A stretch of DNA of 45,025 nt from a bacterium (GTDB taxonomy: Bacteria; Actinomycetota; Acidimicrobiia; Spongiisociales; ZC4RG35). Positions 2,879 to 44,078 of the stretch are shown here, piece after piece. The stretch lies in the NCBI GenBank assembly GCA_028819345.1, contig JAPPLW010000072.1, positions 1-45,025 on the forward strand, in the 5' to 3' direction. The position numbers and the translations under genes were made by a program. Each line of letters begins with the position of its first letter. Within the stretch, counting starts at the first letter, position 1. Under the pieces are notes generated by a model. The model was not told where the DNA came from and searched no databases. It worked only from the letters and a program-made list of their open reading frames with translations.

Positions 2879-3160
2879 GCTTGGTGAATGGAAATGGTGA
2901 GAATAAAGGCGGTGGGACCGCAATGCTTCTGCGGAATCCTTCGTCAGCTGTGGGACAGCATGTGGGGCAACTAGGCCACAAATGCGGGTCTAGCTGCCCT
3001 TTTATGGGGACTCATAACCCGTTGGTTTGCGGGCGGTAGGGGAGGATCGGTTCGTGGGCAGTTCTGGTCTGGGCGAGAGCATCACCCGTTGGGTTGGTTG
3101 CTCATTTGTCCGAGCCCTGCGGCAGGGGATCGGATGGCCCAACCCGGTTTGCGTGTTCGT
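2879..3160. other. Intergenic stretch between convergent genes
   Basis: 282 bases without a convincing gene. A short CCCTGC-GGCAGGG palindrome lies near 3115-3127, and ACCCGTTGG occurs twice (near 3017 and 3084). Nothing else is recognised. Confidence 0.4.
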
Positions 3161-4204: not shown

Positions 4205-4334
4205 CGGGCTGCCTCCTTGGTCTGGTCGGGGCGGCGCAACTAATTCTACTACGGTTCTTCCCGCGGTCATCGACGCGTTCATGGGCCATGACCAACAGGC
4301 GTCGGATCCGACAGAACTTTGTCTGAGGGCGCCT

Positions 4335-5579: not shown

Positions 5580-5957
5580 GCCCTCGCCACTCGCTGTTCG
5601 TGGTAGGGAGAATAGCGACGCGGAAACGGAGGCGCCGGGCTGTGCCTCCCAAGGGAGGGGAACCTCAATCGGAGTCCTTTGCGGCGGAACAGCATGGAGG
5701 GGGGTGGATCGGCACTCTGTCGGGCAGGTTCTCGGTCCGGTCCGCAATTGTGCGAATGATGGGCATGGCATGGTGGGGTGGCTTCGCCAAGGGACAAAGC
5801 CGTCGCTTGTTTGGGGACAACCGGTAGTGTCGGCGCGATGTCACCCCTACCAATAACACCATCCGGTTCGAGCGGCTTTAGGAGGCTCGAACCGGCGTTC
5901 CGGCTCACAGGTTTTCGCGGCTCACAGGGATCCCAATCCGGTTTTCGATCCCGGACG
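5580..5957. other. Intergenic region between divergent genes, with an 11-base inverted repeat
   Basis: About 380 bases separate the binding lipoprotein (-) from the LRR protein (+). The region should hold both promoters, but no clear -35/-10 pair was recognised. A perfect inverted repeat, CCGGTTCGAGC (5863-5873) and GCTCGAACCGG (5885-5895), surrounds GGCTTTAGGAG. A short direct repeat, CGGCTCACAGG, follows near 5902 and 5919. Confidence 0.45.
5863..5895. repeat. Perfect 11-base inverted repeat, 11-base spacer
   Basis: Arms 5863-5873 and 5885-5895 are exact reverse complements. If the LRR gene starts at 5958 the repeat lies in its leader, where it could be an operator or an RNA hairpin. If it starts at 5838 the repeat would be coding. 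Which holds is not known. Confidence 0.5.
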
Positions 5958-8540: not shown

Positions 8541-8581
8541 ATCGGCCGGTCGGCGAGATTCGCAAAACCTCAATGAAAGAA

Positions 8582-9007
8582 CTACACCGCCGGCAGGCAA
8601 GACGCGGCATTTATGACGTCCGGCCCGCTATTGAAGTAGACCAGACACTCCCCGTCGGGATGCTCGAACCGCACCCATTCATAAGGTACGAAATGGGGGC
8701 CTCCGCATAAGGAAGCAGTGGGGGGCTCTTCGTTGCGTTGGGACAGTGCGAGGAACAGGAATCGGGATAGAGATCGTGCCTGTTCACTCGATGGCAGGAA
8801 CCTTTCTTGCGGGAGCCTTACCACCACCCCGTTGTCCCCGGAATGCTCCACGACACGACCGTCGGATTCCAGAGCCGCGCACACGGGAGCGTACGCCTCC
8901 CATAGTGCTTGATACTCCTCAGTCCGTTGCCGGGCGGACCATACGAGGGCGAATAGGCCAATCCCGAAAAGGACGGCGACCACCATGGACCTGGAGCGCT
9001 TCGACAC
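8582..9007 (-). CDS. Small membrane-anchored hypothetical protein
   Basis: 141 aa from GTG 9007; an internal ATG at 8986 is an alternative. One hydrophobic segment (residues 9-24, VVAVLFGIGLFALVW) is an N-terminal anchor or uncleaved signal. The rest is a soluble domain with four Cys in its C-terminal two-thirds (VCAAL, SLCGG, ECLVY, ASCLP), which could form disulfides outside the cell. No family is recognised. It starts 58 bases after the stop of the upstream PPC-domain gene on the same strand, so the two are probably cotranscribed. It converges on the LRR gene with a 41-base gap. Confidence 0.6.
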   Translation of the reverse strand: MSKRSRSMVVAVLFGIGLFALVWSARQRTEEYQALWEAYAPVCAALESDGRVVEHSGDNGVVVRLPQERFLPSSEQARSLSRFLFLALSQRNEEPPTASLCGGPHFVPYEWVRFEHPDGECLVYFNSGPDVINAASCLPAV

Positions 9008-9065
9008 TATGGATCAGAAAGTACCGCGAGGCAAACTGTGCCCCAACCTAATCGGGACGGAACTG

Positions 9066-26485: not shown

Positions 26486-26530
26486 CATAGCGACACATGA
26501 AATCTTCTCTGTAAGTAGGTGGTCGCTATG
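26486..26530 (+). promoter_or_regulatory. Inverted repeat that would pair with the ribosome site and start codon of the first STAND gene
   Basis: CATAGCGAC (26486-26494) is the exact reverse complement of GTCGCTATG (26522-26530), whose last three bases are the ATG start codon. With one bulge the stem extends by two more pairs into the AGGTGG ribosome site (26517-26522). In RNA this hairpin would hide the start; as DNA it could be an operator. Confidence 0.45.
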
Positions 26531-29500
26531 ACCTTGCCCGGCGGAGGTGCTCTCCGTACGGGGCTCGACTACGAGGATTGGTGGCTGGCGTGGCGGATAG
26601 TTGAGATGTTGGAGGGGAAGGCGACTCGGATTCGTTTGGAACCGCCAGGTGATGAGGGCACAGGGATCGAATTCGAGGTCGACATCAAGGGTGAAACGTG
26701 GGGCGAGCAGGCAAAGGACGAGCAGAAGCGATGGACAATCAATCGGCTCCGTAGGGAGAAGGTGCTGTCCGCTGCCAAGACCCAGATCGGATTGGGTCGC
26801 GGCTTTAGGTTCGTTGCTACGAAGGACGCTAGCGAATTGGCTGCTCTCTCCTCTTTTTCTAAGAAGGCAGAGTCATTTGCCTACTACGAGCAGTTCCTGA
26901 CCGATGGGCGTCGAGCCGACCTCGCTGGAGTCGCTGAAGAATGGGGGATTTCAGAAGCAGACGCTTGGCGCATGCTCAAAAAGGTGGATGTGCGACATCT
27001 TACGATGGACTCGCTTCGGATGACAGTAACGACCAAGCTGGAACATCTCTATGTCGATGATCCCGCTGCTGTGGTCGGTGCCCTTCGTTTGTTCTGCCAT
27101 GAGACCATGCATCGGAGCTTCACAGCACCGGAGGTGGAAGGGCATTTTGAAAAGAAGGGTTTCCGGCGAAGGCTGATCGTCGGCGATCAGAACGTAATCA
27201 ATCGGCTAAGGGACACCGTCCAGTCCCAAGACCTTCATGTCGCGTCCTCCGAACCCGCCATAGGTTTGGTTACCCGCTCCGATGTCGGCTGCCTTCTAAA
27301 CAGACTTCGCGACCCGGACTGCAAGCAAATCGTGGTGGTTGATGGAACGGCTGGTTCTGGCAAGTCAACCGTGATCACTGCTGTCGCTAAGGAACTCCAA
27401 AACGACGGCTGGTTCGTGGCTGTGGCACGCATGGATGGGCACAGTCCGATATCAACTTCGGCGGACCTAGGGCAGGCGATGGGACTAGTTGACAAACCAT
27501 CGGTACTGCTTGCTGGGGTTTCGGACGGTATGCCCGCCCTCCTTGTCGTTGACCAGTTGGATGCCGCCAGTTTGTACAGCGGGCGGATGCCCAACAACTT
27601 CAACGCCGTGCAAAAGACTCTCGCCGAACTCGAACCGTACCCCCATGTCAAGGTTTTGCTGGTAACGCGCACAGCCGATCTACGGAACGATTGGAGGATG
27701 GTTAGGTTGCTGAAATCCCAGGATCGCGTCGAGCAGCACACGATCGGCAAGTTGGATGTTCAAGACGTCAAAACTCACCTGTCAGCAAAAGGCATCGGCA
27801 TTCCGATGTCGGCCACCACGCTCGAGTTGCTTCGCACGCCCCTGCACCTAGCTATTTTCAGCCATCTCCCCAAGAGCGCTCAGGCTACCAACTACTCCAC
27901 GCTACAAGGGCTTTACAAGAAGCACACCGAACATGTCCGGGTTGGTCTCGAACGGGAAAGAGGGTTTGACCCTGCAAGTTGGGGGGTGATCACGGGAACT
28001 TTGGTCGAGCACATGAGCGCTAGCGAGGTTCTTAGCGCTCCAAAGCGGATTTTGGCCGAGGTTTCCCCTGTGGCGGTCCGTGATTTGGTTTCCGAATCGG
28101 TCCTTGTAGATACCGGAGAGGGCTATGCCTTTTTTCACGAATCCTATTTCGACTTCTTGTTCGCCCAGGGCTTTGTCGCGTCAGGACGCTCCCTTCATGG
28201 TTTCCTTGTGGAATCCGAGCAGGGGCTGTTTCGACGTGCCCAGGTACGGCAAGTTCTGGAGTACCTGTCCTCCGAAGACCGGAGCAACTTCAGGTCAACG
28301 GTTGTGGAATTGCTCTCCTCTGACCATATACGGTTTCACCTCAAAGACGCGGTTGTCAGCGTTCTCAGCGATTCTCGACCAACTGCCAAAGATTGGGAAG
28401 CGCTCAATTTCATTGCCTGGGATGGGTCAAGTATCGGTTCTAGGCTGATAACTGTCCTTGGACAGGGGGGATGGTTCGATGCTGTGGACTCGTTGGGCCT
28501 ATGGGAAGAGTGGCTGGCGGACCGGGAGAAAGCGGACAAGGTATTCCATCAAGTAATGCGGGTAGCCAAGGAGCGACCCGCCCGGGTCGCTGCACTCGTT
28601 CGACCTCATATAGGGCAGTCCGGAGAGTGGCGGATTCGGTTCCACCAGCTAGCGAGATTCTCATTGAACAAGGAACTCGTGGACCCAATTGTCGAACTTG
28701 TGGAGAGGGGACAACTTGACGACATTCGCGATCCCTGGTCTCTTTTCTATTCGATCAAGGGATATCCAGCGGAAGAGGCCCGGCTCATAGGGTCGTTTCT
28801 ACAGAGGGGACTTGCCCAGGCGCTAGAAGCCGGGTTGGCCGACCCTTTCTCATCGGGGCTTCTGTCGCGTGGTTCGCAGTCGCACTCCGTTATCAGTGAT
28901 GTGGCCGCGGAAGAACCCGCGGCGTTTATCAGGCATGTGTTGCCTTTCGTGATTGGTGTGTCGATGAGCAACCAGCGCCGACTAGGGCAGGAGAGTCTAC
29001 CTTGCAGTGACCTCTGGACCGTCCGCTATCGGGGGCAGGCGTACGGCTTGAAAGCGGTCGTGTTTAAAGCCATCACCGATGCATTGGAGAAGCTGGCCGT
29101 AGACCGGCCGGAAGACTGCGCTACGGTCATACGTGGCCTCCGCCATGCCGAGAGTGAAGAGTTGCGGTTCCTTGCTTGCCGCGTCCTCACAGTCATGAAC
29201 GACTCGGACGATGCCATGGATTGGCTACTGTCCGACACTCGCAACTTTGCGCTCGGATGGTCCGACAATCATCTATGGGCATCCCGCGAGCTAATCGAAA
29301 AGCACTCCGTTGCCTGCTCAACCGCCCTGTTCGAGAGACTTGAAGAGTTCCTGCTCGGTTATTCGCTTTCAGTTGAAAAGGGATGGCCAAAGTATCGTGG
29401 GCGCAGCAGATACGAATTGCTTTCCGCAATGCCCTTCTCCAGGTTGTCCAATCTGGCAAAGCGAAAGCTCCAAGAACTAGAGAGACGCTTCAAAGAAAGC

Positions 29501-30889
29501 TCGCTCGAACCGCCACGGGGCATCGAGGTCCGTTCTGTCGAATCGCCGATTCCCGAAGAGTCGACAAAACACATGTCAGACGACAACTGGATACGCGCCC
29601 TCAAAAAGCACACGAGCAAACAGCCAACCTCGGACGGACATAAGGCCATCGGGGGAGCATTCCATCTGGCTCAACAGTTGGGCAGACGATCCAAGGAACA
29701 CCCAGAGCGTTTCGCCGAACTATCACTGAGATTCGACAACGCAATTCCCAGTGTGGCCATGAACACCATCCTCGATAGCGTCTCCGACTCTATTGACAGT
29801 GCTCTCCTGACCAACATTTGCGAACACGCCGCAAATACCTATGGGACAGACGCAGCACAATCAGTCTGTCAAGCGATCTGGAAAACCAAAGCTGGCAATC
29901 CGACAACCGTGAGGATTATCACCTCCTACAGCCAGGCCCGAGACGAGCAGGGATCAGAAGAATATCCCTCAGATACTGCGCGGGAGTGGGCTGCTCTCGC
30001 TGCTGCATCGGTCTTGCTGTCGGGACCGGACCACGTCGATGAACTCTTACCGGTAATCGAAACTCTCGCCAACGACCACAGCCTAAGAGTCCGGTGCGCA
30101 GCCGCGTTCGCTGTTCATGTCCTTGGTAACCACCAGTCCGAACGAGCACTTGAAATAGCCGAAACCCTGTTCCAAACCCCGGAGGTACTCGACTCTCACA
30201 ACAGCGAAAACCTTCTCGGCTACGCCGTTCTGTGGAGACCGGACCGCTTCGTTCCGCTGCTTTCCCGCGCCCTCCGGTACACTGGCTCCGGCGCAGACCC
30301 GCGGGGAGGCGGGGGGTCGGTGGCGAGGAGGGCTGGTTGTATATGGGCAGTGGCCTACCTTCGCAACCGGTTTCCCTCATCCATTACTCACGACGTATCG
30401 ACGCTTCCTGTCGCTGCTCGGGTGGGAGCAGCACAGATTCTCGCTGCAAGACTCCCTGACAGTTTGGATGTCTTGCCCGTTTTGTTTGACGACGACGACC
30501 CGGAGGTTCGGCGGAGCGCTTCGTTCGCGGTTAGATACATCGCCGAGATCTCAGCGAACGAACAGGATGAACTACTTGAGGCGTTGGTGCAAAGCAAGGC
30601 CTTCTCGGAAGGGAAGGGTTTGCTATTTATCGAGCTTCGAGAGTTGCCTGGAGAGTTGCCCAACGGCACGATCACAGCATGTGAACGGGCTATCGAATTG
30701 GCTGGTGCCCTGGTAGGGGACATCAGAACCGCCGAAGCCGGGCTAGGTACGCATCTGAGCGATGTGGTGCTACGCCTCTACAAGGAATCAGAAGACGACT
30801 TGAAGATCCGCTGCCTCAACATTATTGACAAACTGGTCGAGTTCAACGCTTTCGCCATCCAGAAAAGGCTCGACCAAGAAAGACAGTAA
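26528..30889 (+). CDS. Giant STAND-type NTPase with N-terminal nuclease-like domain (Avs-like)
   Basis: 1453 aa from ATG 26528 (AGGTGG six bases before). Residues 5-110 look like a Cap4/DUF4297-type restriction-endonuclease fold: GLDYEDWWLAWRIVEML, then EFEVDIKG (Asp52) and EQAK (Gln61-x-Lys63). Residues 125-165 resemble a winged helix (GVAEEWGISEADAWRML). The NTPase core has Walker A GTAGSGKST (273-281) and Walker B LLVVDQLD (Asp342), with STAND-like downstream helices and FHESYFDFLFAQGF near 540. The last 850 residues are helical repeats (for example HSLRVRCAAAFAVHVLG, DDPEVRRSASFAVRYIA, HEAT-like). This order, effector, NTPase, sensor repeats, is that of antiviral STAND proteins. It is divergent from the HNH gene. 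Confidence 0.8.
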   Translation: MTLPGGGALRTGLDYEDWWLAWRIVEMLEGKATRIRLEPPGDEGTGIEFEVDIKGETWGEQAKDEQKRWTINRLRREKVLSAAKTQIGLGRGFRFVATKDASELAALSSFSKKAESFAYYEQFLTDGRRADLAGVAEEWGISEADAWRMLKKVDVRHLTMDSLRMTVTTKLEHLYVDDPAAVVGALRLFCHETMHRSFTAPEVEGHFEKKGFRRRLIVGDQNVINRLRDTVQSQDLHVASSEPAIGLVTRSDVGCLLNRLRDPDCKQIVVVDGTAGSGKSTVITAVAKELQNDGWFVAVARMDGHSPISTSADLGQAMGLVDKPSVLLAGVSDGMPALLVVDQLDAASLYSGRMPNNFNAVQKTLAELEPYPHVKVLLVTRTADLRNDWRMVRLLKSQDRVEQHTIGKLDVQDVKTHLSAKGIGIPMSATTLELLRTPLHLAIFSHLPKSAQATNYSTLQGLYKKHTEHVRVGLERERGFDPASWGVITGTLVEHMSASEVLSAPKRILAEVSPVAVRDLVSESVLVDTGEGYAFFHESYFDFLFAQGFVASGRSLHGFLVESEQGLFRRAQVRQVLEYLSSEDRSNFRSTVVELLSSDHIRFHLKDAVVSVLSDSRPTAKDWEALNFIAWDGSSIGSRLITVLGQGGWFDAVDSLGLWEEWLADREKADKVFHQVMRVAKERPARVAALVRPHIGQSGEWRIRFHQLARFSLNKELVDPIVELVERGQLDDIRDPWSLFYSIKGYPAEEARLIGSFLQRGLAQALEAGLADPFSSGLLSRGSQSHSVISDVAAEEPAAFIRHVLPFVIGVSMSNQRRLGQESLPCSDLWTVRYRGQAYGLKAVVFKAITDALEKLAVDRPEDCATVIRGLRHAESEELRFLACRVLTVMNDSDDAMDWLLSDTRNFALGWSDNHLWASRELIEKHSVACSTALFERLEEFLLGYSLSVEKGWPKYRGRSRYELLSAMPFSRLSNLAKRKLQELERRFKESSLEPPRGIEVRSVESPIPEESTKHMSDDNWIRALKKHTSKQPTSDGHKAIGGAFHLAQQLGRRSKEHPERFAELSLRFDNAIPSVAMNTILDSVSDSIDSALLTNICEHAANTYGTDAAQSVCQAIWKTKAGNPTTVRIITSYSQARDEQGSEEYPSDTAREWAALAAASVLLSGPDHVDELLPVIETLANDHSLRVRCAAAFAVHVLGNHQSERALEIAETLFQTPEVLDSHNSENLLGYAVLWRPDRFVPLLSRALRYTGSGADPRGGGGSVARRAGCIWAVAYLRNRFPSSITHDVSTLPVAARVGAAQILAARLPDSLDVLPVLFDDDDPEVRRSASFAVRYIAEISANEQDELLEALVQSKAFSEGKGLLFIELRELPGELPNGTITACERAIELAGALVGDIRTAEAGLGTHLSDVVLRLYKESEDDLKIRCLNIIDKLVEFNAFAIQKRLDQERQ

Positions 30890-31077: not shown

Positions 31078-31638
31078 CTACCTCAGAGCTATGACGACGC
31101 TCGTTACTGCGGCAAGGGCTGCTATGGCGGTAATGGTGAACATCAACCAGTAACTCCAGCCCAGTCTCCTGGACTGTCGGATTTCCTCTTGTATCTGGCT
31201 GAGTGCTTCGAGTTGCGCCACCTGCATCTCCAACGTCGGGGAGACCGGCAATGCTGGTACTTTTGTGGGGTCGAGTGCTGGTAGGCGATCTGGAAGTCCG
31301 GCAACCTTCGATAGGTCTGGGAGTTTCGGGAAGTCTATCTTTGGGAATGACAGGGATGCTTCCGCTATCCGGTCTTTTATTTTGGCGAACTCCCGGGAGT
31401 TGGCTTCGTCCAACATTGTGGAGACTTCCTGCATCCGCTCTTTGAAAGCCTCGTTCTCTCTGTCCACGGCTTCCTTCAACAGCGGATCGGCGTCTAGGAT
31501 ATGCATGCCTCGTCTTCCCAACTCAATCCAATGCTTCATGGGCCACGAGCGGTCTTCCATCCCTTCTCGAAGGGTGGCAACGAAGTCCGAATCAGATAAG
31601 TCTGATAAGGCAGTGTCACCCATCTCTATCTGTGGCAT
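31078..31638 (-). CDS. Small C-terminally membrane-anchored protein, third gene of the XRE-ImmA operon
   Basis: 186 aa from ATG 31638, which lies 13 bases inside the end of the XRE-ImmA gene; the open frame further upstream to 31956 is a shadow of that gene. Residues 1-100 are helical and charged (EAVDRENEAFKERMQEV, likely coiled coil). A repetitive Pro/Leu/Asp stretch follows (FPKIDFPKLPDLSKV, LPALDPTKVPALPV). The C-terminus has a membrane helix (YWLMFTITAIAALAAVTSVV) with only ALR after it. No family is recognised. Its overlap with the metallopeptidase-regulator suggests joint expression, and it could be a membrane substrate or effector. Confidence 0.65.
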   Translation of the reverse strand: MPQIEMGDTALSDLSDSDFVATLREGMEDRSWPMKHWIELGRRGMHILDADPLLKEAVDRENEAFKERMQEVSTMLDEANSREFAKIKDRIAEASLSFPKIDFPKLPDLSKVAGLPDRLPALDPTKVPALPVSPTLEMQVAQLEALSQIQEEIRQSRRLGWSYWLMFTITAIAALAAVTSVVIALR

Positions 31639-32717
31639 GCCGTCTTGGGGTGCCTTCCACTCTTTTTGACTATGCGGAGGGCGGGGAGCGGCAGGGGAAG
31701 TGTCCGGGCGGCTTGGTCTACATTGGCGAATCCACCGAGGTTGGCGATTTGTTGCGGGTCGTAGGCGAGTTCTCCGAGGGCGTTGACGATTGATGCCGGT
31801 GTTGAGGGTGTTTCCGGCGGCAGTTGTTCGCTGAGGGGTTCCCGTTTTCGCCATCCTCTTGCGCTGAGTGCCTTGTAGAGAGACGTTTTGTTGGTTTGGG
31901 TGATCGTGCCGAGGTCGTGGGCTCGTGTAATCAGCGCGGCTATGGAAACCATCCATTTGCGTTTCAGGTTGGCGAAGTGCCCCAGGGAGCGTTGTCGGAG
32001 TTCGGGGCGGATCATGTGGGCGGGCATGAGAAACTCGGCGGCGAACTGCATGGCTTCTTCTTCGCTTTGGTTGGATAGGTGGATTGGTTCTGAGTGCATG
32101 ACTATGTGTCCGAGTTCGTGAGCCAGTGTCAGTCGTTTTCTGTCAGTTGGCACTCGGGAGTTGATCATGATGATTGGATGGTCATCGATCCATTGGGAAA
32201 GGCCGTCCACGCGGGGACTGCCGAAGTCGCGTTCGATAATCAGACAACCTGCTGATTCCATCCACGCGGTCAGGTTCCGGACCGGTCCCTGGGGCATGCG
32301 CCATTGCGCTCTGACGAGACGGGCGGCTTCGTGGGGTGGGTACTCGATCGGGTCGAGGGTGGGCATGGTGTTGGATGGGCGATAGTCGATTACTGACAGA
32401 AGGAGACGCATCTGTGCTCGGAGGACATTGATGCCCGCTTCGAGGCGTCTCCACACTCTTGCCGGTGCGGTCGCCCGTCGTCTCATGTGCGCTTCTGTGG
32501 CTATTGAACCGGCGATTTGGGACATGTTGGTGAGAAGGTGACTGTTAACACCGACAGCCGATGCCAACTGTTCAAGGGTTTCCGGGTCTGGGTCCCGTAA
32601 ACCGTTTTCGTATCTCGACAGGGCCGCTTGTGTGACCCCGGCTTGTTCCGCCAGCTGTGCCTGGGTCAAACCGGAGGCGATCCTTGCGGTGTGAATCGCC
32701 TCTCCGAGTCCGTTCAT
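31626..32717 (-). CDS. XRE regulator fused to ImmA/IrrE metallopeptidase
   Basis: 363 aa from ATG 32717, which overlaps the stop of the gene before it (ATGA). Residues 1-62 are an XRE helix-turn-helix (HTARIASGLTQAQLAEQAGV, ALSRYENGLRDPDPETL). Residues 120-260 are the ImmA/IrrE domain, with the zinc motif LAHELGHIVMH (His200, Glu201, His204) and EEEAMQFAAEFLMP supplying the distal Glu. ImmA/IrrE proteins cleave cognate repressors or act as stress switches and toxins. The C-terminal 100 residues carry a wing-like region (LYKALSARGWRKREPLSEQ). Its DNA-binding part probably acts on the dyad over the operon promoter at 33347-33362. Confidence 0.88.
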   Translation of the reverse strand: MNGLGEAIHTARIASGLTQAQLAEQAGVTQAALSRYENGLRDPDPETLEQLASAVGVNSHLLTNMSQIAGSIATEAHMRRRATAPARVWRRLEAGINVLRAQMRLLLSVIDYRPSNTMPTLDPIEYPPHEAARLVRAQWRMPQGPVRNLTAWMESAGCLIIERDFGSPRVDGLSQWIDDHPIIMINSRVPTDRKRLTLAHELGHIVMHSEPIHLSNQSEEEAMQFAAEFLMPAHMIRPELRQRSLGHFANLKRKWMVSIAALITRAHDLGTITQTNKTSLYKALSARGWRKREPLSEQLPPETPSTPASIVNALGELAYDPQQIANLGGFANVDQAARTLPLPLPALRIVKKSGRHPKTACHR

Positions 32718-33343
32718 GCCTTCGAATCTTTCCGGGTGTCGACGTTGGTTTCCATCGGTCGGACAGTGGGTGCCGGAGCGTCCGGTCGGGACGGCACGAT
32801 CACGCCCGAAGGTGCCTGCGGTCTGATCTCCCGGATCCACAGCGTGTCGCTTCTGCTCGTCGGATATGACACCGTAGCCGCTCCCATTTCTCCGAGTTCG
32901 CGATGCCAGATGTAGCCGAACACCAGGTTGGTCATCTCGGGGAGGTCGTCAAACAAAACGAACTGTCCCGGCGGAGGGTGTTGTCCGTAGAACCGCAGGG
33001 CTTGGTCAGTGGGGTAGCTGGCGATGGCGCCGGTGCCATGGTGGCGTTTGACACGGATACGGAAACGGTCATGCACGATGAGTTCCCGCAAAGGCCCACT
33101 CTCGAAGACGGTGACTTCGTCTATGTCGTCGGTTTCGGCTTTCAGGTGTTGCCACAACAAGTCGTGGATGACGTTGGACATTCCACGGGGACCGTGAGCG
33201 GCCGCCTGGGACGGCAGAGCCGCCCTGTATTCGGCCAGGTCGGCGGTTGCGTTCGCTACCGCTGATGCCCACGCAGCGAGCAACTTGTCACCCAGTGACT
33301 CCAACACATGGTCCGCATCGACGGAAAAACTGTCCGATAACAT
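32714..33343 (-). CDS. Hypothetical protein, first gene of the XRE-ImmA operon
   Basis: 209 aa from ATG 33343; a longer frame to 33400 would read through the promoter. No named domain is recognised. The protein is soluble, with an N-terminal helical part (DHVLESLGDKLLAAWASAVAN) and a beta-rich second half (FRIRVKRHH, FVLFDDLPEMTNLVFGYIWH, DTLWIREIRPQ). As best I recall, similar proteins precede ImmA/IrrE genes in actinobacterial mobile elements. Its stop overlaps the next start by four bases, so coupling is tight. It may be the partner or substrate of the metallopeptidase. Confidence 0.6.
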   Translation of the reverse strand: MLSDSFSVDADHVLESLGDKLLAAWASAVANATADLAEYRAALPSQAAAHGPRGMSNVIHDLLWQHLKAETDDIDEVTVFESGPLRELIVHDRFRIRVKRHHGTGAIASYPTDQALRFYGQHPPPGQFVLFDDLPEMTNLVFGYIWHRELGEMGAATVSYPTSRSDTLWIREIRPQAPSGVIVPSRPDAPAPTVRPMETNVDTRKDSKA

Positions 33344-33380
33344 ACCGGTCAGTATACCGACCCTGCTCGGTTTTCTCCAA
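33344..33380 (-). promoter_or_regulatory. Promoter with overlapping operator-like dyad of the XRE-ImmA operon
   Basis: On the minus strand TTGGAG (33375-33380), an 18-base spacer and TATACT (33351-33356) form a promoter. ATG 33343 begins only seven bases after the -10 box, so the mRNA would be leaderless. The -10 box lies inside a 16-base imperfect palindrome, GGTCAGTATACCGACC (33347-33362), with one mismatched pair. This is the expected place for self-repression by the XRE protein of the operon. Confidence 0.55.
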
Positions 33381-33410
33381 ACACCTTTCTTCCCAGGCAT
33401 CTACCCTGTC

Positions 33411-33524: not shown

Positions 33525-35651
33525 TTATTCCCACCATGTGGGTGCGCCGACCAGGGTTGCTCGCCGTTGCCGGGTTTCCACGGTCATGGTGTCCCCGCTT
33601 GAGTAGACACGGCGTATGGGAGCCTTGGTGACCACGCTGCCCAGATAGTGTCCGTCTTCTCGGAACCAGCGGAGACGCTTTTTCTGGAGTAGACCGAACC
33701 CGGTTTGGGCTACGACAAGACTGCCCGCCTCGAAGGTGTCGAGCAGGGCGCAAAGCGCATTGTCCCGCAAGACGTACAGTCTCGTGTCTGTCAACATGTA
33801 CAGATAGTCCCCTGTGTCGATGATTTGTCGGGGGACGCTTCCGATGTCGTATAGGCGTCTCCCTTTCCCGTTGTGGTCCACCAGCACCACCCGACCGGAG
33901 TAACTGGCGAGATAAACCGCGTCGGAACCAGCCGCGAAAGCGGCGGCGTATATCCAATCGGCGGCATCCTGTTCCCTGCCCACCATCCCGATTGACACGG
34001 TGAATCCCACTTCTGGCAAATCGATCGTCGACTCGCTGGTTTCTCGGGCAAACAGGGCATAGGAGGACAGGGCGCTGGTGTCTACTCCTGTAAGCGTCTC
34101 AGCGGCCTGGTTGATGTTCCGCATGGTCGCTTCAGCGTTTGGTTGGTTGGAATTGACGTCTGGGTGGTGACGTTTCGCCAGTTCTCGATATCGCCTTTTC
34201 AGATCCTCGGGGGTGAAGGGCATCGCGAGGCCCATGAGGTCAAGGGCCTTTCGCACCTGGTAGTCGGCGGCGGCGCTACTGCTGGGTGGGGGTATCTTCT
34301 TCCACCCTTCTTTCAAGGGGAATCTGGCTCCCCATAGTCCCTTGCCTCTCACATCCACACACCATGCCTCGTCAACGGCCGTGAAGAGGTACCGTCCTAC
34401 TGTTTCTGAAAGAGCCACACATCGGATGTGGTTCTTGAGTTGTTTGTCTGGAATGCGAAAGCGGTTCCGCAACGCTCTTATCTCGGGGGACTTGTCCAGA
34501 GGTGTCTCGAAAATCGACTGCAGGTGCTCGTCGTAGGCATGCAGGACGCACTCCTTTGACATGGCGATGAACCCTCTACCCGGAGGATGCATCCCCGTGC
34601 GGTAGACACCGTGACCGAATCCGGCTTTGGCGCCCACTTTGCCCGTCCGGTCATACTGCAGGGCTGAGGCTTCGGAATGTTCCATGCCCTCGGCGTTTCC
34701 GAGGTCATCAACCATTAACAGGCCAGAATCGTTGGGATATAGCTTTCGGAATGCGGGGTCTGGGCGTTCGGACATGGGAATGCTCTCGACCTTGGCAATC
34801 TTCCAATCGGCATCGACAACCCGGAAATGACCGTCGATCTCAGTTGGAGTCGTTCTCCCCCGGGGCACCTGCGCCTCGTTCCAACGATTTGGGGACCGAG
34901 GCAACGGCACGTATTCAAGGAATTCGATGTCAAGTTCGCGCAGCTTGGGCGGGGTTCTGTCTGTCCGATGCGATGCCACTGGTGCCTGTGGTTTCGCAAC
35001 GGGAACACCATTCGCATCTGCGGGCAGGAGGCGGTAGGTACGTCCTTCTTTGACGCGCACGATCTTCCCTGCCTTCTCGAGATACGAGATCAGATTGGCT
35101 ACTCTGCGCCCGTCCTGCTCACCTACCAACCCCTTGACATCCCGTTGCAAGCAATTGGGGTTGGAACGGACCGCTTCCTGTATGGACTCGAACAGCGCCA
35201 TGTTGTACAGATGATCTTCGATGCCTTCCACCCACATTTCGAGTAGAGGTGTGCTCTTGGCGATATCCGCCATGCGGGAGAGCCCTTCATGGTCGCCGAC
35301 CAACGCGAGAATCGTGCCTCCCTGCTGAAATACTGGCATTGATGGAGGCAACTCGCCGTGTTCCTGCGTCCACTCGGTAATCCACCCCGGCACCGCAGCA
35401 ATGTTTTCCCGTACCAGCCGGGCGGCCTGCTCGTAGTCATGTTCCGCTATCGCTTTTCTCATTTGGTTCATTGACTCGAAGTAAGCATCAGTTGCCGGAG
35501 TGCATCTCTCTTGTCGGGCTGAATAAAAGGGGACGTCACGATCAGGTTGAGGGTTGCCCCCGTCAATCCGCCGGAGAGTCCGTTCTGGGGTTCTTTCGGT
35601 CGGTTGTTTTTTGTTCCCTCTTCCGAAAAGGCGCTTACCCCATCCTGCCAT
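33525..35651 (-). CDS. Winged-helix, J-domain and propeller-like multidomain protein
   Basis: 708 aa. Residues 1-45 are basic and disordered. Residues 55-150 are helical. Residues 155-210 resemble a winged helix (NCLQRDVKGLVGEQDGRR, LEKAGKIVRV). Residues 475-520 are a J-domain with helix II KRRYRELAKRH and the HPD motif at 496-498, so it should stimulate an Hsp70. The flanking stretches (FIAMSKECVLHAYDEHL, DAVYLASYSGRVVLVDHNGK, DYLYMLTDTRLYVLRDN, RLRWFREDGHYLGSV) are beta-propeller-like blades split by the J-domain. No Hsp70 gene is near. Similar DnaJ-type proteins occur in bacterial stress or defence clusters. It is divergent from the metallophosphoesterase. Confidence 0.72.
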   Translation of the reverse strand: MAGWGKRLFGRGNKKQPTERTPERTLRRIDGGNPQPDRDVPFYSARQERCTPATDAYFESMNQMRKAIAEHDYEQAARLVRENIAAVPGWITEWTQEHGELPPSMPVFQQGGTILALVGDHEGLSRMADIAKSTPLLEMWVEGIEDHLYNMALFESIQEAVRSNPNCLQRDVKGLVGEQDGRRVANLISYLEKAGKIVRVKEGRTYRLLPADANGVPVAKPQAPVASHRTDRTPPKLRELDIEFLEYVPLPRSPNRWNEAQVPRGRTTPTEIDGHFRVVDADWKIAKVESIPMSERPDPAFRKLYPNDSGLLMVDDLGNAEGMEHSEASALQYDRTGKVGAKAGFGHGVYRTGMHPPGRGFIAMSKECVLHAYDEHLQSIFETPLDKSPEIRALRNRFRIPDKQLKNHIRCVALSETVGRYLFTAVDEAWCVDVRGKGLWGARFPLKEGWKKIPPPSSSAAADYQVRKALDLMGLAMPFTPEDLKRRYRELAKRHHPDVNSNQPNAEATMRNINQAAETLTGVDTSALSSYALFARETSESTIDLPEVGFTVSIGMVGREQDAADWIYAAAFAAGSDAVYLASYSGRVVLVDHNGKGRRLYDIGSVPRQIIDTGDYLYMLTDTRLYVLRDNALCALLDTFEAGSLVVAQTGFGLLQKKRLRWFREDGHYLGSVVTKAPIRRVYSSGDTMTVETRQRRATLVGAPTWWE

Positions 35652-35920: not shown

Positions 35921-36685
35921 ATGGGTTCCAGATTTGCGTTGGTGGGTGACATTCATGGCCGTTTCGAGGTGCTGGCCGAGGCTCTCGATGTGGCTCGTGG
36001 TCGGTGGGGAAGGTTCGATTTCGTGCTGGCGGTAGGTGATGTGGAACCCAACCGTGGTTTTGAGGATCATCTTGGGGTGGTGGGTCCGCCCCGCTATCGC
36101 AAGGTGGGCGACTTCCCCCAAGTTGTTGCTGGTGACATCACCCTCGGTGCGCCCCTGTACTTCATCGGCGGGAATCACGATCCGTATCCGGCGTTGGACG
36201 AGGCGGGGGCGGGTGAGTGGGCACCGGGAGTGTGGTGGCTCGGTCGTTGGGGCATTACCAAGATACGAGATGTGAATGTGGGGTTCTTGTCGGGGATCTA
36301 CTCGCCGAAGTACAGCGACCTCCTCGAACCGAAACGCGACCATGCCAAACAGCGGACCTACTGGCATCGGTCCGAGTTGGAACATCTCACCCGTGCCGCC
36401 CGCCGCTACCACGGACGTGTCGATGTGCTGTTGACTCACGACTGGCCGTCGGGCGCGGGCACCAACCGGGCAGGCCAACCGGTCGGGGATCCGTCTATGC
36501 GGCAACTCGTCGAGAAACTGCGGCCCCGTATCCACGCCTGCGGGCACATGCACTACGACCACCGGGCCAGGATCGGCCCTACCCAAGTTGTTTGCCTAGC
36601 CAGACCACACATTGCTTCTGACGGTTTGTATGGCGTGGCCGTGGCCGAACGCGACCGCCGGGGAAACCTGCAAATCCTCCCCTAA
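35921..36685 (+). CDS. Calcineurin-like metallophosphoesterase resembling RNA lariat debranching enzyme
   Basis: 254 aa from ATG 35921 (TGGAG five bases before). Metal ligands are Asp10 and His12 (VGDIHG), Asp40 (VGDVE), Asn85-His86 (GGNHD), His173 (LTHDWP) and His209/His211 (CGHMH), so the binuclear site is complete. Two segments recall Dbr1, the 2'-5' debranching enzyme: GFLSGIYSPKYS, and the spacing of the helix SELEHLTRA before VDVLLTHDWPSG. The protein is about the length of the Dbr1 catalytic domain alone. The enzyme probably cleaves a phosphodiester in a nucleic acid or nucleotide; lariat activity is only suggested. A 112-codon gene follows after two bases. Confidence 0.82.
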   Translation: MGSRFALVGDIHGRFEVLAEALDVARGRWGRFDFVLAVGDVEPNRGFEDHLGVVGPPRYRKVGDFPQVVAGDITLGAPLYFIGGNHDPYPALDEAGAGEWAPGVWWLGRWGITKIRDVNVGFLSGIYSPKYSDLLEPKRDHAKQRTYWHRSELEHLTRAARRYHGRVDVLLTHDWPSGAGTNRAGQPVGDPSMRQLVEKLRPRIHACGHMHYDHRARIGPTQVVCLARPHIASDGLYGVAVAERDRRGNLQILP

Positions 36686-36687
36686 GA

Positions 36688-37026
36688 ATGTCACTAACAC
36701 GCGAACAGAGAAGAAGCCTCTATCTTCACACCGCCATCGCGAAGGCACTCCGACATCGCCCAACCGAAGTGATCGAGATCGCCCGGGAAAACATTGACAA
36801 GATGCGGTCGGTCAATCCGCAAGCTTGGCGGCTTTTGGACGAATGGGAACGGATTCTCAAGGGGACGACCAGCGAAATCGTCGCCAGCATGCTCGACCCC
36901 AGTGAACACGGCCAGGACCTCCGCCAGGTTTCCCCCTTCGCTGGGGTACTCACTGCTGATCAACGCGCTGACGCATACCGCAGGTTCAGGAAGGCGGAAG
37001 CGAAACGGAAACACCCGTCCACATAG
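36688..37026 (+). CDS. Small helical protein coupled to the metallophosphoesterase (antitoxin-like family)
   Basis: 112 aa. MSLTREQRRSLYLHTAIAKAL, then ENIDKMRSVNPQAWRLLDEWERIL and DLRQVSPFAGVL match, as far as I recall, a family of small actinobacterial proteins often next to toxin-like nucleotidyltransferase genes. The second half ends with a basic helix (YRRFRKAEAKRKH). It has no Shine-Dalgarno site and starts two bases after the phosphoesterase stop, so translation is coupled. It may control or bind its neighbour. Confidence 0.65.
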   Translation: MSLTREQRRSLYLHTAIAKALRHRPTEVIEIARENIDKMRSVNPQAWRLLDEWERILKGTTSEIVASMLDPSEHGQDLRQVSPFAGVLTADQRADAYRRFRKAEAKRKHPST

Positions 37027-37165: not shown

Positions 37166-37915
37166 TTAGAGGATCATCTCGCTGATACCGAATGTCCAGT
37201 AGGCTGATTCGTACTCGCCTCTTTCGACGAAGTGCATCATGGAATACCCACCGATTCTGAAACTACCGGCTTGCCAAGGAATTTTGAGCAGCTGGGACGT
37301 GTCAGAGTCGTAGAAACAGCAGATCATGACCCTTATGAGTTCTCGCACCTGTCCGAAGTCGTATACGGGCAGACCCGCGGGGCGTGGCACCCGATCGGGA
37401 CCGTCGACGATCATCTGTTTCACCAGAGCACCCAGATCGACCCCGGGGGGCGGTTTCGGATGAGGTCCCAGGTCGGCGTGGAACCTGAGCGTCCGATGCG
37501 CAGCTTCGTAGCTCCCCCACTTCACGAGTTGGATAATGGACTTCCCATTCGCTTCCGGGCCGCCGGGTCGCGAAGGTATTTTCAGCAGCTGTGACGTGTC
37601 AGCGTTGGGGAAATAAACGATCATGCACCTCACGAGTTCCCGGACCTGGCCGAAGTCGTGAACAGGGAAATTCAGTGGCGGTGACACGCGATCGGGGCCG
37701 TTGATGATCATCTGTTTCACCAGGGCGCCGAAATCAGCTCCGGTAGGTGATTGTATGAAACGATCCGGGTCGGGCTCGGGGGTGGGTTGCGTCGTTTCCA
37801 TCGGGTGCAATCGTATCGGACTGTCCGCAGGACCCGTGGGGGGTTGTTCGGTGAACATCAACCCCTTGGGCTGTTCAAAGGCACGGGTGGGGAAGCCAAC
37901 CCCAGGGTATCTCAT
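37166..37915 (-). CDS. Protein with an internal duplication of an 85-residue domain
   Basis: 249 aa from ATG 37915, which has AAGGGG five bases upstream. A Pro-rich lead (residues 1-57) is followed by two copies of one domain (61-146 and 160-244). Shared motifs are GALVKQMI, NGPDRV or DGPDRV, DFGQVREL, MI, DTSQLLKIP, G-x-S and WGSYEAAHRT or RGEYESAYWT. The pattern LLKIP, GG-S, L-x-G-x-E-x-A recalls the C-terminal domain of MbcA/ParS-type antitoxins (DUF2384), but the likeness is weak. No nuclease or membrane motif is seen. The small membrane protein gene lies upstream on the same strand (109-base gap), so the two may be cotranscribed. Confidence 0.6.
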   Translation of the reverse strand: MRYPGVGFPTRAFEQPKGLMFTEQPPTGPADSPIRLHPMETTQPTPEPDPDRFIQSPTGADFGALVKQMIINGPDRVSPPLNFPVHDFGQVRELVRCMIVYFPNADTSQLLKIPSRPGGPEANGKSIIQLVKWGSYEAAHRTLRFHADLGPHPKPPPGVDLGALVKQMIVDGPDRVPRPAGLPVYDFGQVRELIRVMICCFYDSDTSQLLKIPWQAGSFRIGGYSMMHFVERGEYESAYWTFGISEMIL

Positions 37916-38538: not shown

Positions 38539-41500
38539 GTGGATAGAGCAGAACCGGTAGAGATCCTCAGTGGTCGTGGGTTCGCCTTCGAAGATCACGT
38601 TGGTACGTATTTCGCTGCTGCCATGCTGGCTGACGAGTCGGTGGTGGGCCTCGGGCCACCGATCAAGATTGAGTTCCAGGTCAAAGTCGACGGGTGGCGG
38701 TTGGATGACCTTCTAGTTTGGTTCGGCACTTGCGAAGATACGTGCCGGAGGTGGGCTGTTTCCATCAAGAGCGGTCAGCCTATTCGGTCTGTTTTCGAGA
38801 AGGATTTTACGGAGAGGGCGTGGGATGAATTGCTCGGAGAAAGCGGGAGCGGCTTCAACCCAGACATAGACCTAGTTGGTTTGGTAACTCGTCCGTTGCC
38901 TGTTGACACGAAAGAGAATTTGGAGGATCTCATCGCCAAAGCCCGTTCCCAGGACCCGCGGGATCTTGATCGTCGCATCGCCCGTCCCAGGTATGTGAGC
39001 AGGGACAAGCGAAAACTGTGGAACAGTCTCCGAGGTCCGACCGAATCAGGCAGGGTGTCGGCTTCCCCTGGGGAACTTCTCAAACGCTTCAAATACCTCG
39101 ATCTAGACCTGTTGCGGTCTACATCCTCAAGCAAGGAACAAGCAATCCGATGGTGCGAGAGATCACTCCCGGAACCAGGTGAAGCTGACAAACTGTGGGA
39201 TTCTCTGTTTGCCGAGGTCCAAACCGAACGCACCAACGGTGGGTACCTGAACCTCCCCAAGTTATACGGCAGGTTGTCGTCCAAGTACGAGTTCCTACGC
39301 GACGGACATTCCGCCCACAACCAGGTGCCAAGTGGGGAACACACCGATTTGGCTGGTCGTCCCTCTCTCCAGATCCTCTCTGATTACCGACATAGGATGC
39401 GGGACAGTCTCGCCGATGGCGTTGAGAAGTTCGTTGACCTTGTTGTAGCGTGTGAAGAGGGAGAGGATATGGATTCCTCTGCTGTCAGTCGCCGAATCGG
39501 TGAGAGGACTCCGGTGGCGTTGATCGGCCCGTCCGGTTACGGCAAGTCGTTCCTGGCGCAGCACTTGGCGGTGCGGCACTGTGAGGACGCCCGTCTAGTG
39601 GTGTGGATGCATGCCGACGAGTACGAAAAGGGCCGATTCGACGAACTTCTTGCACGGTCTATGGAACCATTCAGCGAGAAACGGTGGGAGACGCTTCTGG
39701 GTGCGGCAGAAGAGTTCGGCGTTGGGACAACCTTCGTTGTGGATGGACTGAATGAATGCCCGCCGAGTGAACGAGGGAGGCTGCTCCAACAGCTAAGTGG
39801 GTTCGCGTTGCGCCATGCGGCGAGTGTGCTGATCACGAGCACCACCGAAGCCTTTCCCAACTTGCCCAAAGCCACTGTCCTCCGCGTCAAGGCACCAGAT
39901 GAAAAGACCCGCCTGGCCATTCTCACTGCCCACGGCGCCAAGCACCCGGAACGTATCAGCAGCCAGTTCCGCACCCCCTATGAGCTTGCCATTGCTGCTA
40001 AGTGTGAGAGCGAACTTGATGAGAATGCTTCAGTCATTGAACTCGAAGGGGCCTACATACGAGAGTTCGCACGCACAGAGCAACTCCGGGCGGGTCTGCG
40101 CTCTCTCGCCAGTCATTTGCACTCGAGACTTCGGACAAGCATGAGCAAGCAGGAGGCCATTTCGATTCTCATGCGTCCAAGAGGGAACCATTCGCCCCGA
40201 GAGGTGGATGAAGTGCTTGGGTGTCAACTCTTGAACAATGACCGCTACCGGGTGAGGTTCTCCCACGAACTCATTGGCCGGTACCTCGCCGCCGAAGACA
40301 CTGTCCTGTCAACCGACTCGGACCGGTCGTTAGGCGAGCTACTTCAACAGGCACCCAACAGAGTCCTTTTGGAGACGGCGTTGACGATCGAAAGCGACCC
40401 TCGCCGGGTGTGGGAAGCGATGAAGGTGCTCACCCACTCCGAACATGTTTTCTCGGCGCTCATCGGTAGCTATGGCTCGGATGTCGCTGAAGTGGCAACT
40501 CAAGAATGCCGAGATGTGCTACAGCGGGCTACCGCCTCGACCACCGAAGAGCAGGGGCACATCGAGAAAGCCTCCGATCCGTTCTTTGGGGTTTGGATTA
40601 CCGATCGTCAGTGGACCGAGTGGGAACGAACGGTTTTGGCCACAGTTGGGATGGGTCTCACAAGGGGCTTGTTCGTAGGCGAGGTGTGCGAATTGATCGA
40701 CCGCACAGACGAAGCCTGCCTAGTCCAAGCTCGGAGACTGCAAGCGGACGGGGACCGCACGCCGGTATCGCGGGTTGTTTCCGCCACCTTCACTCAGATG
40801 TCCCAGAGGGATGGCCATGGACTCCCAGCCTGCTATGTGGTGCCGGTGTTCGAGAGGACATTGGGAAGAACAAAGTTCACATCAGACTGGCGAGGAGACG
40901 GACTCGCTCGACGTTTCGCCGCCGGCGCAGGTACCTGGTCGTGGGGACGTCTCTATCTGGCGGTGCTATCCGTTGACGAACGGGACCCCTCGGACCAAGC
41001 CTTTTTCGCTTCGTTGCTGCAGCGAGCGTGGAAGGCTGGGGGATATCACCTCCAACTCGAAGCTCTCGAGACCGCCCGGTTTTTCCGCAGGGTCGATGAA
41101 CCCTACCGCTCCGAGATACTCAATGTGGTCGAAGACATCGAGCCGAACAACTGGGCGCTACAGCACGCCCAAATCGAGGTATTGGACGCGTTCGGAGTGA
41201 TCGAGAGTTCAACGACGGTTGAAGATGTCCAGGCCCACGTCCGCTGTGTGATCGTTCATGCCGACGACATCGAGAAGTGCAAGGCGGCTAGCGGCATTCT
41301 CTCCATGCGGTTCGAACCCATCGTAGGTCCCTATTTCGAAGCCGTCGAAAAACTAACAAGAGAAGAGAAAGTGCGGCTGCTGACGATGGGAGCCCATGGG
41401 TCGGATCCGTCCATATCATCCGATCTCCACATCACCCTCGACGAACTGACGGAACTAATACCCACCGGCAATGCGGACTTGGACGATGCAGCCAAGTCTG

Positions 41501-42066
41501 CTTTCGTTCCGTTTCTTCACGGACCACCTGAAGATGCCTTCAACCCAGGACAAGCAGCTGGTGCTTGTCTTGCTGCCCTTCGAGGATGGGCCAAGTTCGA
41601 AACGGCACTACCCCCCGAAGCTCCTGGCCTAAGCGCCCAGCAGAGGAACTGGCGGCTCGTAACCAGCCTCGTTCTCGCCGGCCTACGCCATGACACAAAC
41701 GTTGACGCCGAAGAGACTTGGCGTGTTCTCATCCGCCAACCCACCCAAACCATCCTGAATTTGGCATCACTCCAAAGCGGATCTCGGTATCCCCTCGACG
41801 ATCCTAAAGCCAATGCCTTCGAACGCCTTGTTAAGGACTACGGGGAACCAATGCGTCTTCTTTTCGAACTAGTCCTCGAAGACCCGGACAAAGTGCCTGC
41901 CGAACGCCTCCGGCGCAGAGCCGGCGACAACTTCATAACGCGGATACTGGGACGTGTCGGAGATGAATCCACAGCGGCACGCCTCCGGTCTCACATCTCA
42001 CATCAGGAAATGGGCCCAGCGGCGGTTGAAGCCATCCGGCAGATCAACAACCGCGTCTCGCCTTAG
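38539..42066 (+). CDS. Second large STAND-type NTPase with N-terminal nuclease-like domain
   Basis: 1175 aa from GTG 38539. Residues 8-110 resemble a restriction-endonuclease fold of the Cap4/dsDNA-nuclease type: GRGFAFEDHVGTYFAAAML, LDDLLV (Asp56-Asp57) and AVSIKSGQP (Lys77), though the usual Glu/Gln before the Lys is Ser. Residues 280-300 are a linker helix. Walker A is GPSGYGKSF (330-338), Walker B TTFVVDGLNE (Asp402), then VLITSTTEAFP (sensor-like) and RFSHELIGRYLAAED near 575. The C-terminal 600 residues are helical repeats without named motifs. The layout matches antiviral STAND proteins and differs in sequence from the gene at 26528, so this is a second system or partner, not a duplicate. 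It converges on the OLD gene. Confidence 0.78.
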   Translation: MDRAEPVEILSGRGFAFEDHVGTYFAAAMLADESVVGLGPPIKIEFQVKVDGWRLDDLLVWFGTCEDTCRRWAVSIKSGQPIRSVFEKDFTERAWDELLGESGSGFNPDIDLVGLVTRPLPVDTKENLEDLIAKARSQDPRDLDRRIARPRYVSRDKRKLWNSLRGPTESGRVSASPGELLKRFKYLDLDLLRSTSSSKEQAIRWCERSLPEPGEADKLWDSLFAEVQTERTNGGYLNLPKLYGRLSSKYEFLRDGHSAHNQVPSGEHTDLAGRPSLQILSDYRHRMRDSLADGVEKFVDLVVACEEGEDMDSSAVSRRIGERTPVALIGPSGYGKSFLAQHLAVRHCEDARLVVWMHADEYEKGRFDELLARSMEPFSEKRWETLLGAAEEFGVGTTFVVDGLNECPPSERGRLLQQLSGFALRHAASVLITSTTEAFPNLPKATVLRVKAPDEKTRLAILTAHGAKHPERISSQFRTPYELAIAAKCESELDENASVIELEGAYIREFARTEQLRAGLRSLASHLHSRLRTSMSKQEAISILMRPRGNHSPREVDEVLGCQLLNNDRYRVRFSHELIGRYLAAEDTVLSTDSDRSLGELLQQAPNRVLLETALTIESDPRRVWEAMKVLTHSEHVFSALIGSYGSDVAEVATQECRDVLQRATASTTEEQGHIEKASDPFFGVWITDRQWTEWERTVLATVGMGLTRGLFVGEVCELIDRTDEACLVQARRLQADGDRTPVSRVVSATFTQMSQRDGHGLPACYVVPVFERTLGRTKFTSDWRGDGLARRFAAGAGTWSWGRLYLAVLSVDERDPSDQAFFASLLQRAWKAGGYHLQLEALETARFFRRVDEPYRSEILNVVEDIEPNNWALQHAQIEVLDAFGVIESSTTVEDVQAHVRCVIVHADDIEKCKAASGILSMRFEPIVGPYFEAVEKLTREEKVRLLTMGAHGSDPSISSDLHITLDELTELIPTGNADLDDAAKSAFVPFLHGPPEDAFNPGQAAGACLAALRGWAKFETALPPEAPGLSAQQRNWRLVTSLVLAGLRHDTNVDAEETWRVLIRQPTQTILNLASLQSGSRYPLDDPKANAFERLVKDYGEPMRLLFELVLEDPDKVPAERLRRRAGDNFITRILGRVGDESTAARLRSHISHQEMGPAAVEAIRQINNRVSP

Positions 42067-42142: not shown

Positions 42143-44078
42143 TCAAACTGTCCCACCAATACGAGTCGAAACTTGCAGTGCGCTAAGTAGCGCATTGTGG
42201 AGTTCTATCAACGTGTTCGTGTGCCGCGGTTCCAGTAATGGAAGCCCTGATTTGTTCGGTTGTCTAGCCGCTATTTCAAGAACACGACTCGCTATGGCCC
42301 GTTTGGAGGGTGCTGGAATACCGGCGCTTTCATACCAGTCGTCCAGGTAGGTGGACCGCCCACATTCGGGAAGTTTCAATTCTTCTGTTGGTTCAAAGCC
42401 GGACCTCCGGATCTCTTCTGACACTGCCATGGTCAGCGTCTCACCCGCCACTAGGTCCTCAAGGACCGTGCCAGGCGGCAACGAGAATATGTGTTCGCAA
42501 GGAACACCTGCTCTTTTGATCTGGTGGGTCTTTTTCTCACCGGCTTCATCGCCGTCGGTTAGATACATCATCCTGTCGGATTCCAAGTTGATGCTCTCGA
42601 TGCCGTCACGTGAGAGTCGCGCGAGTCCGGGAACTATCTGATAGGGCAGGGACTCACTCCCTGTTGCTTGTCGCAGTAGGGATGGAAGGAGAATGAAGTC
42701 GGCGACTCCTTCTGTAGCTACCGCGAATCTGTGGGGTGTGACTGCGGCTGTGGAAGCACCCATGTCAAGCAACAGGGGTCTGAATCCGGAACGGGAATGC
42801 CATATCCAGTTCTTGACGTAGCTGCGGTCATCTTGGTTGGGGTCGGGCACGACAGCCCGCACAGCAGCACCGAGATCATGCGGGAGGCATCCAGGCGAAT
42901 GCGTCGAATAGATGACCTGTGACGCCACGTCCTGGTGGTAGAAGAGGTTGACAAGATCGGCTTGCGCATCCCAGTGAAGATGAATGTCCGCTTCGTCGAC
43001 AACGAGCACGGGCCGAGTGTTCGTGCCGATCTCAGCTAGAAATGCCACAAGGGCGACAAAGGTTCGCAGTCCCGCGCTTCGGTCTTTCCATTCTGTACAT
43101 TTCGCCGTCTCCAGCGGCAACATAAATCTTCAACCAGGGCGGGGGAGACACGTTCAGTCGGACTCGGAGATTGTTCACTTGTGACCAATGGGCCGACAGT
43201 GTCTCGGTAAGGCGACGGTTAGCTTTGTCCAGCAGGTCCTCCCACAGTTCCGGCTGGGCACCTCTAACAAGGTTGCTGATATTTCGGAGGCTAAACCCGC
43301 CTAGTCGCGCAAGGTTCTTCACCCCATCCGTCCAGGATGAGGGATCATCCAGGTTGTATTCTGAGTGCAACGTTCGGGCGCTCTCCGAAAACTCCACAAT
43401 CCTCGGAGCCAGACCCTGCAGCTTTGACAATGCCAGTTCTTGAAAGCGCCTCCGTTTTTCGTGTTCCACAACCCGACCGATCCACGTAACTATTCGATCA
43501 GCTTCCACCGGCGGCGGAATCCCCTCAGCAGCGAGCGTCAAAACCAGATAGCGCCCGAACTCGGTGAGGGCAGCTAGTTCCTCCTCCGAGTAGTCACTCG
43601 GCTGTTTCATCAGAATCGGCAACGCTTCCCCAATCCGCGCTGCGACGCCCAAGGCTTTGAAGTGATCCCAATTCGCACCGCGGAGTTCGTTGAGGGCTTC
43701 GCTGGCCCGAGTCGTCTCGTCAACGTTGAGCAGTGCCGGAATGATTTCGTGGGATTGGGAACCGTCGGCGTTCCGCCACACCCGGTACCAGCGGATATCG
43801 GAGGCCATGGGAACGCTTTCCTCAAGGTTTCTACGGTCATCATCGTCGAGAAGGAAGGTTCCTTCCAGAACCCGACCCTCCAAAGCCAACCCTCTTGTCA
43901 CATCTCGAGGATCAAAACCTGCACTGCCGCCTAACTGCGTGAGAGCATCCAGCAAACTGGTTTTGCCGGACTCATTCGGCCCTACAAGCGCCACGACTGG
44001 AGCGTCAACATTGACCTTGGCGCTTTCGAACCGCCGAAACCGTCGAAGGTGAAACCAAGCCAACCTCACAGCCAACAA
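42143..44078 (-). pseudogene. OLD-family AAA/TOPRIM nuclease gene split by one frameshift
   Basis: Two overlapping frames together code a 644-aa OLD protein. The 5' frame (44078 to about 43085) has Walker A GPNESGKTS (residues 33-41). The 3' frame (ending 42143) has the signature DRSAGLRTF, Walker B PVLVVDEADIHLH, the H-loop STHSPG, and the TOPRIM nuclease (EGVADFILLP, then YLTDGDEAG). Skipping one base in the A-run of GGAAAGACC (plus-strand T-run 43085-43087) joins YRME to DRSAGL exactly where all OLD ATPases have ERSAG. It is a true mutation, a sequencing indel or, less likely, +1 frameshifting. OLD proteins are antiphage nucleases. The PP2C gene lies 47 bases upstream on the same strand. 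Confidence 0.85.

Follow-up and report, generated by a model that had tools for sequence, protein, structure and literature searches.

A putative single-gene nuclease-NACHT immune sensor and an independent protein of the same plan encoded in one bacterial genomic island

STAND2, a gene located at positions 38539-42066 of the forward strand of the analysed DNA (referred to below as the window, with a total length of 45,025 nucleotides), very probably encodes a self-contained single-gene immune sensor that acts like Avs1-4 and the nuclease-type bNACHT proteins. In the same strongly favoured reading, another giant gene of the window, STAND1, encodes a second, independent protein, which has the same plan and belongs to another family; the two have an island in common and not a pathway. 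STAND2 is novel at the level of the family, and it is of a kind that is already known, i.e. an Avs/bNACHT-like single-gene sensor.

Domain organization of STAND2

The STAND2 ORF starts with GTG and encodes a protein of 1175 aa, uninterrupted by internal stop codons. An in-frame stop codon is located just upstream of the GTG, and the sequence GAGG lies ~9 bases upstream of the start. Scanning for promoters and terminators revealed nothing exceeding the values obtained with shuffled sequences. Homologs of the protein (~23-33% identity over 58-76% of the protein length) are encoded by plasmids of Mycobacterium, Mycolicibacterium, Acidisarcina, Xanthomonas and rhizobia, and a further genome of the phylum to which the window belongs encodes a match of 31% identity to residues 316-1173. 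Because of these homologs, STAND2 can be considered a real gene and not a chance ORF. No family matching STAND2 was found using PADLOC and NCBIfam, and the PADLOC hits did not include an Avs model.

The predicted features of STAND2 are as follows:

38539..42066 (+), STAND2, nuclease-NACHT-helical sensor protein (1175 aa)
38539..39288 (+), N-terminal PD-(D/E)XK nuclease domain of the Cap4/Avs3/LmuA/DUF4297 type (~residues 1-250; AlphaFold2, Foldseek, VIA)
38590..38592 (+), helix 1 residue E18 (motif GxGxxFE), predicted to belong to the active site
38704..38709 (+), D56-D57, predicted to bind metal, invariant in alignments; at the start of core strand 58-63
38755..38769 (+), AVSIK (residues 73-77; S75-I-K77), SxK variant of (E/Q)xK, terminating core strand 69-77
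39526..39549 (+), Walker A, GPSGYGKS (residues 330-337)
39733..39759 (+), Walker B, FVVDGLNEC, NACHT-like DGxxE (residues 399-407)
40084..42063 (+), all-helical C-terminal half, presumed sensor (~residues 516-1175; low-confidence model, alignment)

A single protein thus contains the whole tripartite plan of effector, NTPase and repeat sensor, the last of these parts being modelled at low confidence. The original prediction had described the gene product as a nuclease-like STAND protein, and both the model of the N-terminal fold and the Pfam NACHT match agree with this description.

The N-terminal nuclease domain

Residues 1-316 were modelled with AlphaFold2 (mean pLDDT 72; 66-94 for most of residues 14-250). 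In this model, a helix (14-30) is followed by three strands (41-46, 58-63 and 69-77), a second helix (88-98) and a further strand (111-117), which corresponds to the alpha-beta-beta-beta-alpha-beta core of the PD-(D/E)XK fold. Among the best matches of this model in the PDB, Foldseek gave E 2.8e-5 for Cap4 and E 1.4e-4 for Avs3, and the Z scores calculated with VIA were 13.6 for Cap4, 13.1 for LmuA (Lamassu), 13.0 for Avs3, 12.5 for DUF4297 (HerA-DUF) and 11.2 for HamA of Hachiman. Sequence searches of solved structures yielded only matches of the P-loop type with the N-terminal alignment (e.g. Avs4, E 0.013) and none with the full protein.

The alignments used for structure modelling comprised only sequences from the window, from genomes and from related loci. 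E18 and D56/D57 are invariant in an alignment of eight rows (D56/D57 also in a second alignment), and K77 is kept in most of the aligned relatives. STAND2 itself has D57 and K77, with S75 in place of E/Q; the SIK ending of the motif (residues 75-77), noticed earlier in place of QxK/ExK, was therefore read correctly. In the nuclease alignment, the relatives from Paraburkholderia, Aromatoleum and a viral contig have AxSxK, the one from Desulfobacterales has ACTIK, that from Hymenobacter QIK and that from Azospirillum QAK. SxK is a lineage variant: AxSxK occurs in the closer kin and QxK in the more distant ones, and E18, D57 and K77 are retained.

It is likely that the predicted domain is an active nuclease. 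The serine in place of E/Q, together with the loss of the lysine in two relatives within the phylum, could also mean that the domain lacks catalytic activity or does no more than bind nucleic acids, and that the output is produced by sequestering or by another route. We consider this unlikely, since E18, D57 and K77 are all present both in STAND2 and in its relatives outside the phylum, and related proteins carry another nuclease, NERD, in the place of this domain.

The two relatives that belong to the phylum of the window are giant proteins (locus L096 of genome G246 and locus L097 of genome G023), in which the DD motif is kept and the region of the catalytic lysine reads AVACRAQ and ALAMRRAP, respectively. 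Part of the family may thus possess a domain that only binds nucleic acid.

The NTPase and the sensor half

Residues 325-445 of STAND2 match the Pfam NACHT family (E 3e-6; 27.6 bits vs the curated cut-off of 26.7), and the region contains both Walker A and a Walker B of the DGxxE type, as found in NACHT P-loop modules. The full-length model is of low overall confidence (pLDDT 58, pTM 0.32); the pLDDT reaches 75-86 in much of the NTPase region, and what remains of the modelled C-terminal half consists of helices only. The top ranks of a Foldseek search with this model were occupied by NLRC4, NAIP5, SAMD9 and Avs4. The family to which the sensor half belongs is common to plasmid-encoded proteins of Mycobacterium, Mycolicibacterium, Acidisarcina and Xanthomonas.

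Probable exchange of effectors and sensors

The two halves of STAND2 have different sets of relatives. The NACHT-sensor half is homologous to plasmid-encoded proteins with an N-terminal NERD nuclease (PF08378), and the nuclease half to proteins with other sensors (loci L024, L037, L075, L077 and L078), of which that of Azospirillum (L078) has an Avs4-like sensor (E 1.4e-23). STAND2 and its relatives are therefore mosaics, and these sequence comparisons are most simply explained by an exchange of effector and sensor. Such swapping (a Cap4-like vs a NERD nuclease; an Avs4-like vs other sensors) helps to predict which part of a protein senses and which part kills. The NACHT-sensor family of STAND2 is also an addition that is absent from the defence catalogue searched (PADLOC).

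A more far-reaching proposal, which we put forward tentatively and find somewhat more doubtful than probable, is that the NACHT-plus-helical-sensor half represents an undescribed plasmid-mobile family of Actinomycetota, Acidobacteriota and Pseudomonadota, whose nuclease is exchanged between the Cap4/Avs3 type and NERD, which would respond to a signal of infection other than those used by Avs1-5, and in which the SxK nuclease would be active.

Comparison with known systems and proposed mode of action

STAND2 most closely resembles the Avs (AVAST) proteins, especially Avs3 (8dgc) and Avs4 (8dgf), which are likewise large single proteins composed of an N-terminal nuclease, a STAND NTPase and a helical C-terminal sensor. 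The nuclease model of STAND2 matches residues 4-246 of Avs3 (Z 13.0). In contrast, the PADLOC Avs models do not match STAND2, whose sensor half is a different sequence family. The bNACHT systems also consist of a single gene encoding a central NACHT, an N-terminal effector and a C-terminal sensor, and the likeness to bacterial NLR-related proteins is reflected by NLRC4 and NAIP5 among the best structural matches of the full-length model.

The PD-(D/E)XK fold, extending over ~200 residues (Z 11-13.6), is common to STAND2 and to Cap4 (CBASS), LmuA (Lamassu), DUF4297-HerA and HamA. In the latter group the nuclease has (E/Q)xK and is coupled to a SAVED receptor or occurs with SMC, HerA or helicase partners, whereas in STAND2 it has SxK and is fused to a NACHT protein. 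The NERD-NACHT proteins encoded by Mycobacterium, Xanthomonas and rhizobial plasmids have NACHT and sensor halves homologous to those of STAND2, but their effector is a NERD nuclease and not a Cap4-like one.

By analogy with the Avs and bNACHT proteins (PMC12931631, PMC12169576), the following mode of action may be proposed for STAND2. The protein would be held off until its C-terminal helical half meets a cue made during infection. Binding of the cue would lead to nucleotide exchange in the NACHT ATPase and to oligomerisation, which would bring together the N-terminal Cap4/Avs3-type PD-(D/E)XK domains. The gathered nuclease domains would then cut DNA, probably that of both host and phage, so that phage growth is halted and the cell is sacrificed (abortive infection). 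The sensing of the trigger, the oligomerisation, the DNA cleavage and the antiphage function are all predicted from what is known of other STAND proteins.

STAND1 and its relation to STAND2

The second giant gene is situated 7.65 kb from STAND2:

26519..30889 (+), STAND1, nuclease-STAND-HEAT protein of a separate system (1456 aa; AAA_16 and HEAT in Pfam)

Its nuclease motif is GxxYE...GxEF...QxK. Direct BLASTP comparison of STAND1 and STAND2 gave only a non-significant match (E 0.07). The profiles of both proteins, extending from the N-terminus to the P-loop, align over 275 columns (E 1.8e-12), and this match drops to E 0.0024 (probability 12%) without the P-loop; the signal thus derives mostly from the linker and the P-loop. 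In addition, the N-terminus of a STAND1 relative from genome G184 is reached by the profile built for the nuclease region of STAND2 (E 7e-5). STAND1 and STAND2 are two families of the same plan, whose nucleases are possibly remotely related. The earlier description of the two genes as having the same plan and little shared sequence is therefore correct, and the term "unrelated" was too strong.

In two related genomes (locus L028 of genome G130, 1719-6417, and locus L029 of genome G290, 7015-11494), the STAND1-type gene is present as two ORFs that overlap by ~11 bases, with the break at an identical position, so that a gene of its own encodes the C-terminal repeat part.

Independent occurrence of the STAND genes

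Among 296 genomes of the phylum surveyed for kin of both proteins, clear kin of STAND1 were found in 5 other genomes and of STAND2 in 1; the genome from which the window originates was the only one with both. There was also no overlap between the plasmid records containing kin of STAND1 and those containing kin of STAND2. In a tblastn comparison of 14 genes of the island with 29 relative loci, not one of the 29 had relatives of STAND1 and STAND2 together. The remaining cross-hits of this comparison concerned common domains, i.e. ImmA (L034, L035), ABC-type P-loops, a PP2C and a weak match of the HEAT type in L073. The flanks of the STAND relatives are unrelated, and contain integrases and IS elements, replication genes or metabolic genes. 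The missing co-occurrence is by itself a weak argument, since the genomes sampled contain few STAND2 relatives; the case for independence is made by the solitary occurrence of each gene. STAND1 and STAND2 are, moreover, each bordered on both sides by genes of the opposite strand, so neither of them shares an operon with a partner.

No relatives of STAND1 or STAND2 were found in the phage collection, nor in the viral contigs with either protein as a single query; one nuclease-domain relative was found in these contigs with the N-terminal alignment as the query.

The original prediction had offered two alternatives for this block of genes, namely a multi-gene defence system or a stack of independent ones. 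It had proposed a search for the pair and its inner genes in other genomes, and had named the occurrence of each STAND gene alone, with unrelated neighbours, as the finding that speaks against a single system. This is what was observed: STAND1, STAND2 and the inner genes showed no conserved co-occurrence, and their independent occurrence points to an island. The second alternative thus stands and the first does not.

A defence system in which STAND1, STAND2, the XRE-ImmA, J-domain and Dbr1-like proteins act jointly would account for the presence of all these parts within ~16 kb of one low-G+C island, but every part recurs without the others and both STAND genes lie between opposite-strand genes, which makes such joint action extremely improbable. 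The multi-gene system was rejected on the basis of the independent occurrence of its parts. This settles a question of annotation: the two neighbouring look-alike giant genes are two independent alarm genes and not the subunits of one machine.

The inner genes and the surrounding island

The following genes are located between STAND1 and STAND2:

31626..33400 (-), 228-aa protein and XRE-ImmA protein (RmrA-like), separate RosmerTA-like module
33525..35651 (-), 708-aa J-domain protein, no linkage to STAND genes at other loci
35921..37026 (+), phosphoesterase (calcineurin-like, Dbr1-like) and 112-aa gene, likewise without linkage to STAND genes at other loci

RmrA, the antitoxin of RosmerTA (PMC10440598), is the PADLOC match of the XRE-ImmA protein (E 1e-62). 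On a Rhodococcus plasmid, the gene for the 228-aa protein overlaps an ImmA gene, and the STAND genes are absent there.

Kin of the J-domain gene adjoin genes of the repA/repB/repC or parA/parB type on plasmids of Rhodobacterales (L068, L069, L070), and a copy (60%) is present on another contig (C90) of the genome of the window; this long J-domain gene looks like a plasmid-associated one. A functional link between the J-domain protein and STAND2 would have a precedent in bNACHT25, which needs DnaJ (PMC12169576), and the J-domain gene is 3-5 kb from the NACHT gene. The published chaperone is, however, the general DnaJ of the host (PMC12169576), kin of the J-domain gene were found at none of the STAND2 relative loci, and such kin adjoin plasmid replication and partition genes. 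A link of this kind is therefore highly unlikely.

The Dbr1-like gene (35921-36685, +) has a copy of 80% identity on contig C44 and a fragment on contig C68 of the same genome (L073, L074), in both cases without STAND genes, which suggests that it is mobile or repeated cargo.

The G+C content of the island (24900-45025) is 0.55-0.60 from ~24 kb, vs 0.62-0.67 in most of the left flank. A tRNA search of the window found none.

Two further genes of the complementary strand were noted in this region. The first (37166-37915) encodes a 249-aa protein composed of two similar halves of ~80 residues (DFGALVKQMI...DTSQLLKIP), for which a convincing Pfam match was not found. The second (42143-44078) is an OLD/GajA-like gene encoding AAA plus Toprim, which is divided into two ORFs (43032-44078 and 42143-43123) that overlap and are read in different frames; this gene is broken, due to either a frameshift or an assembly error.
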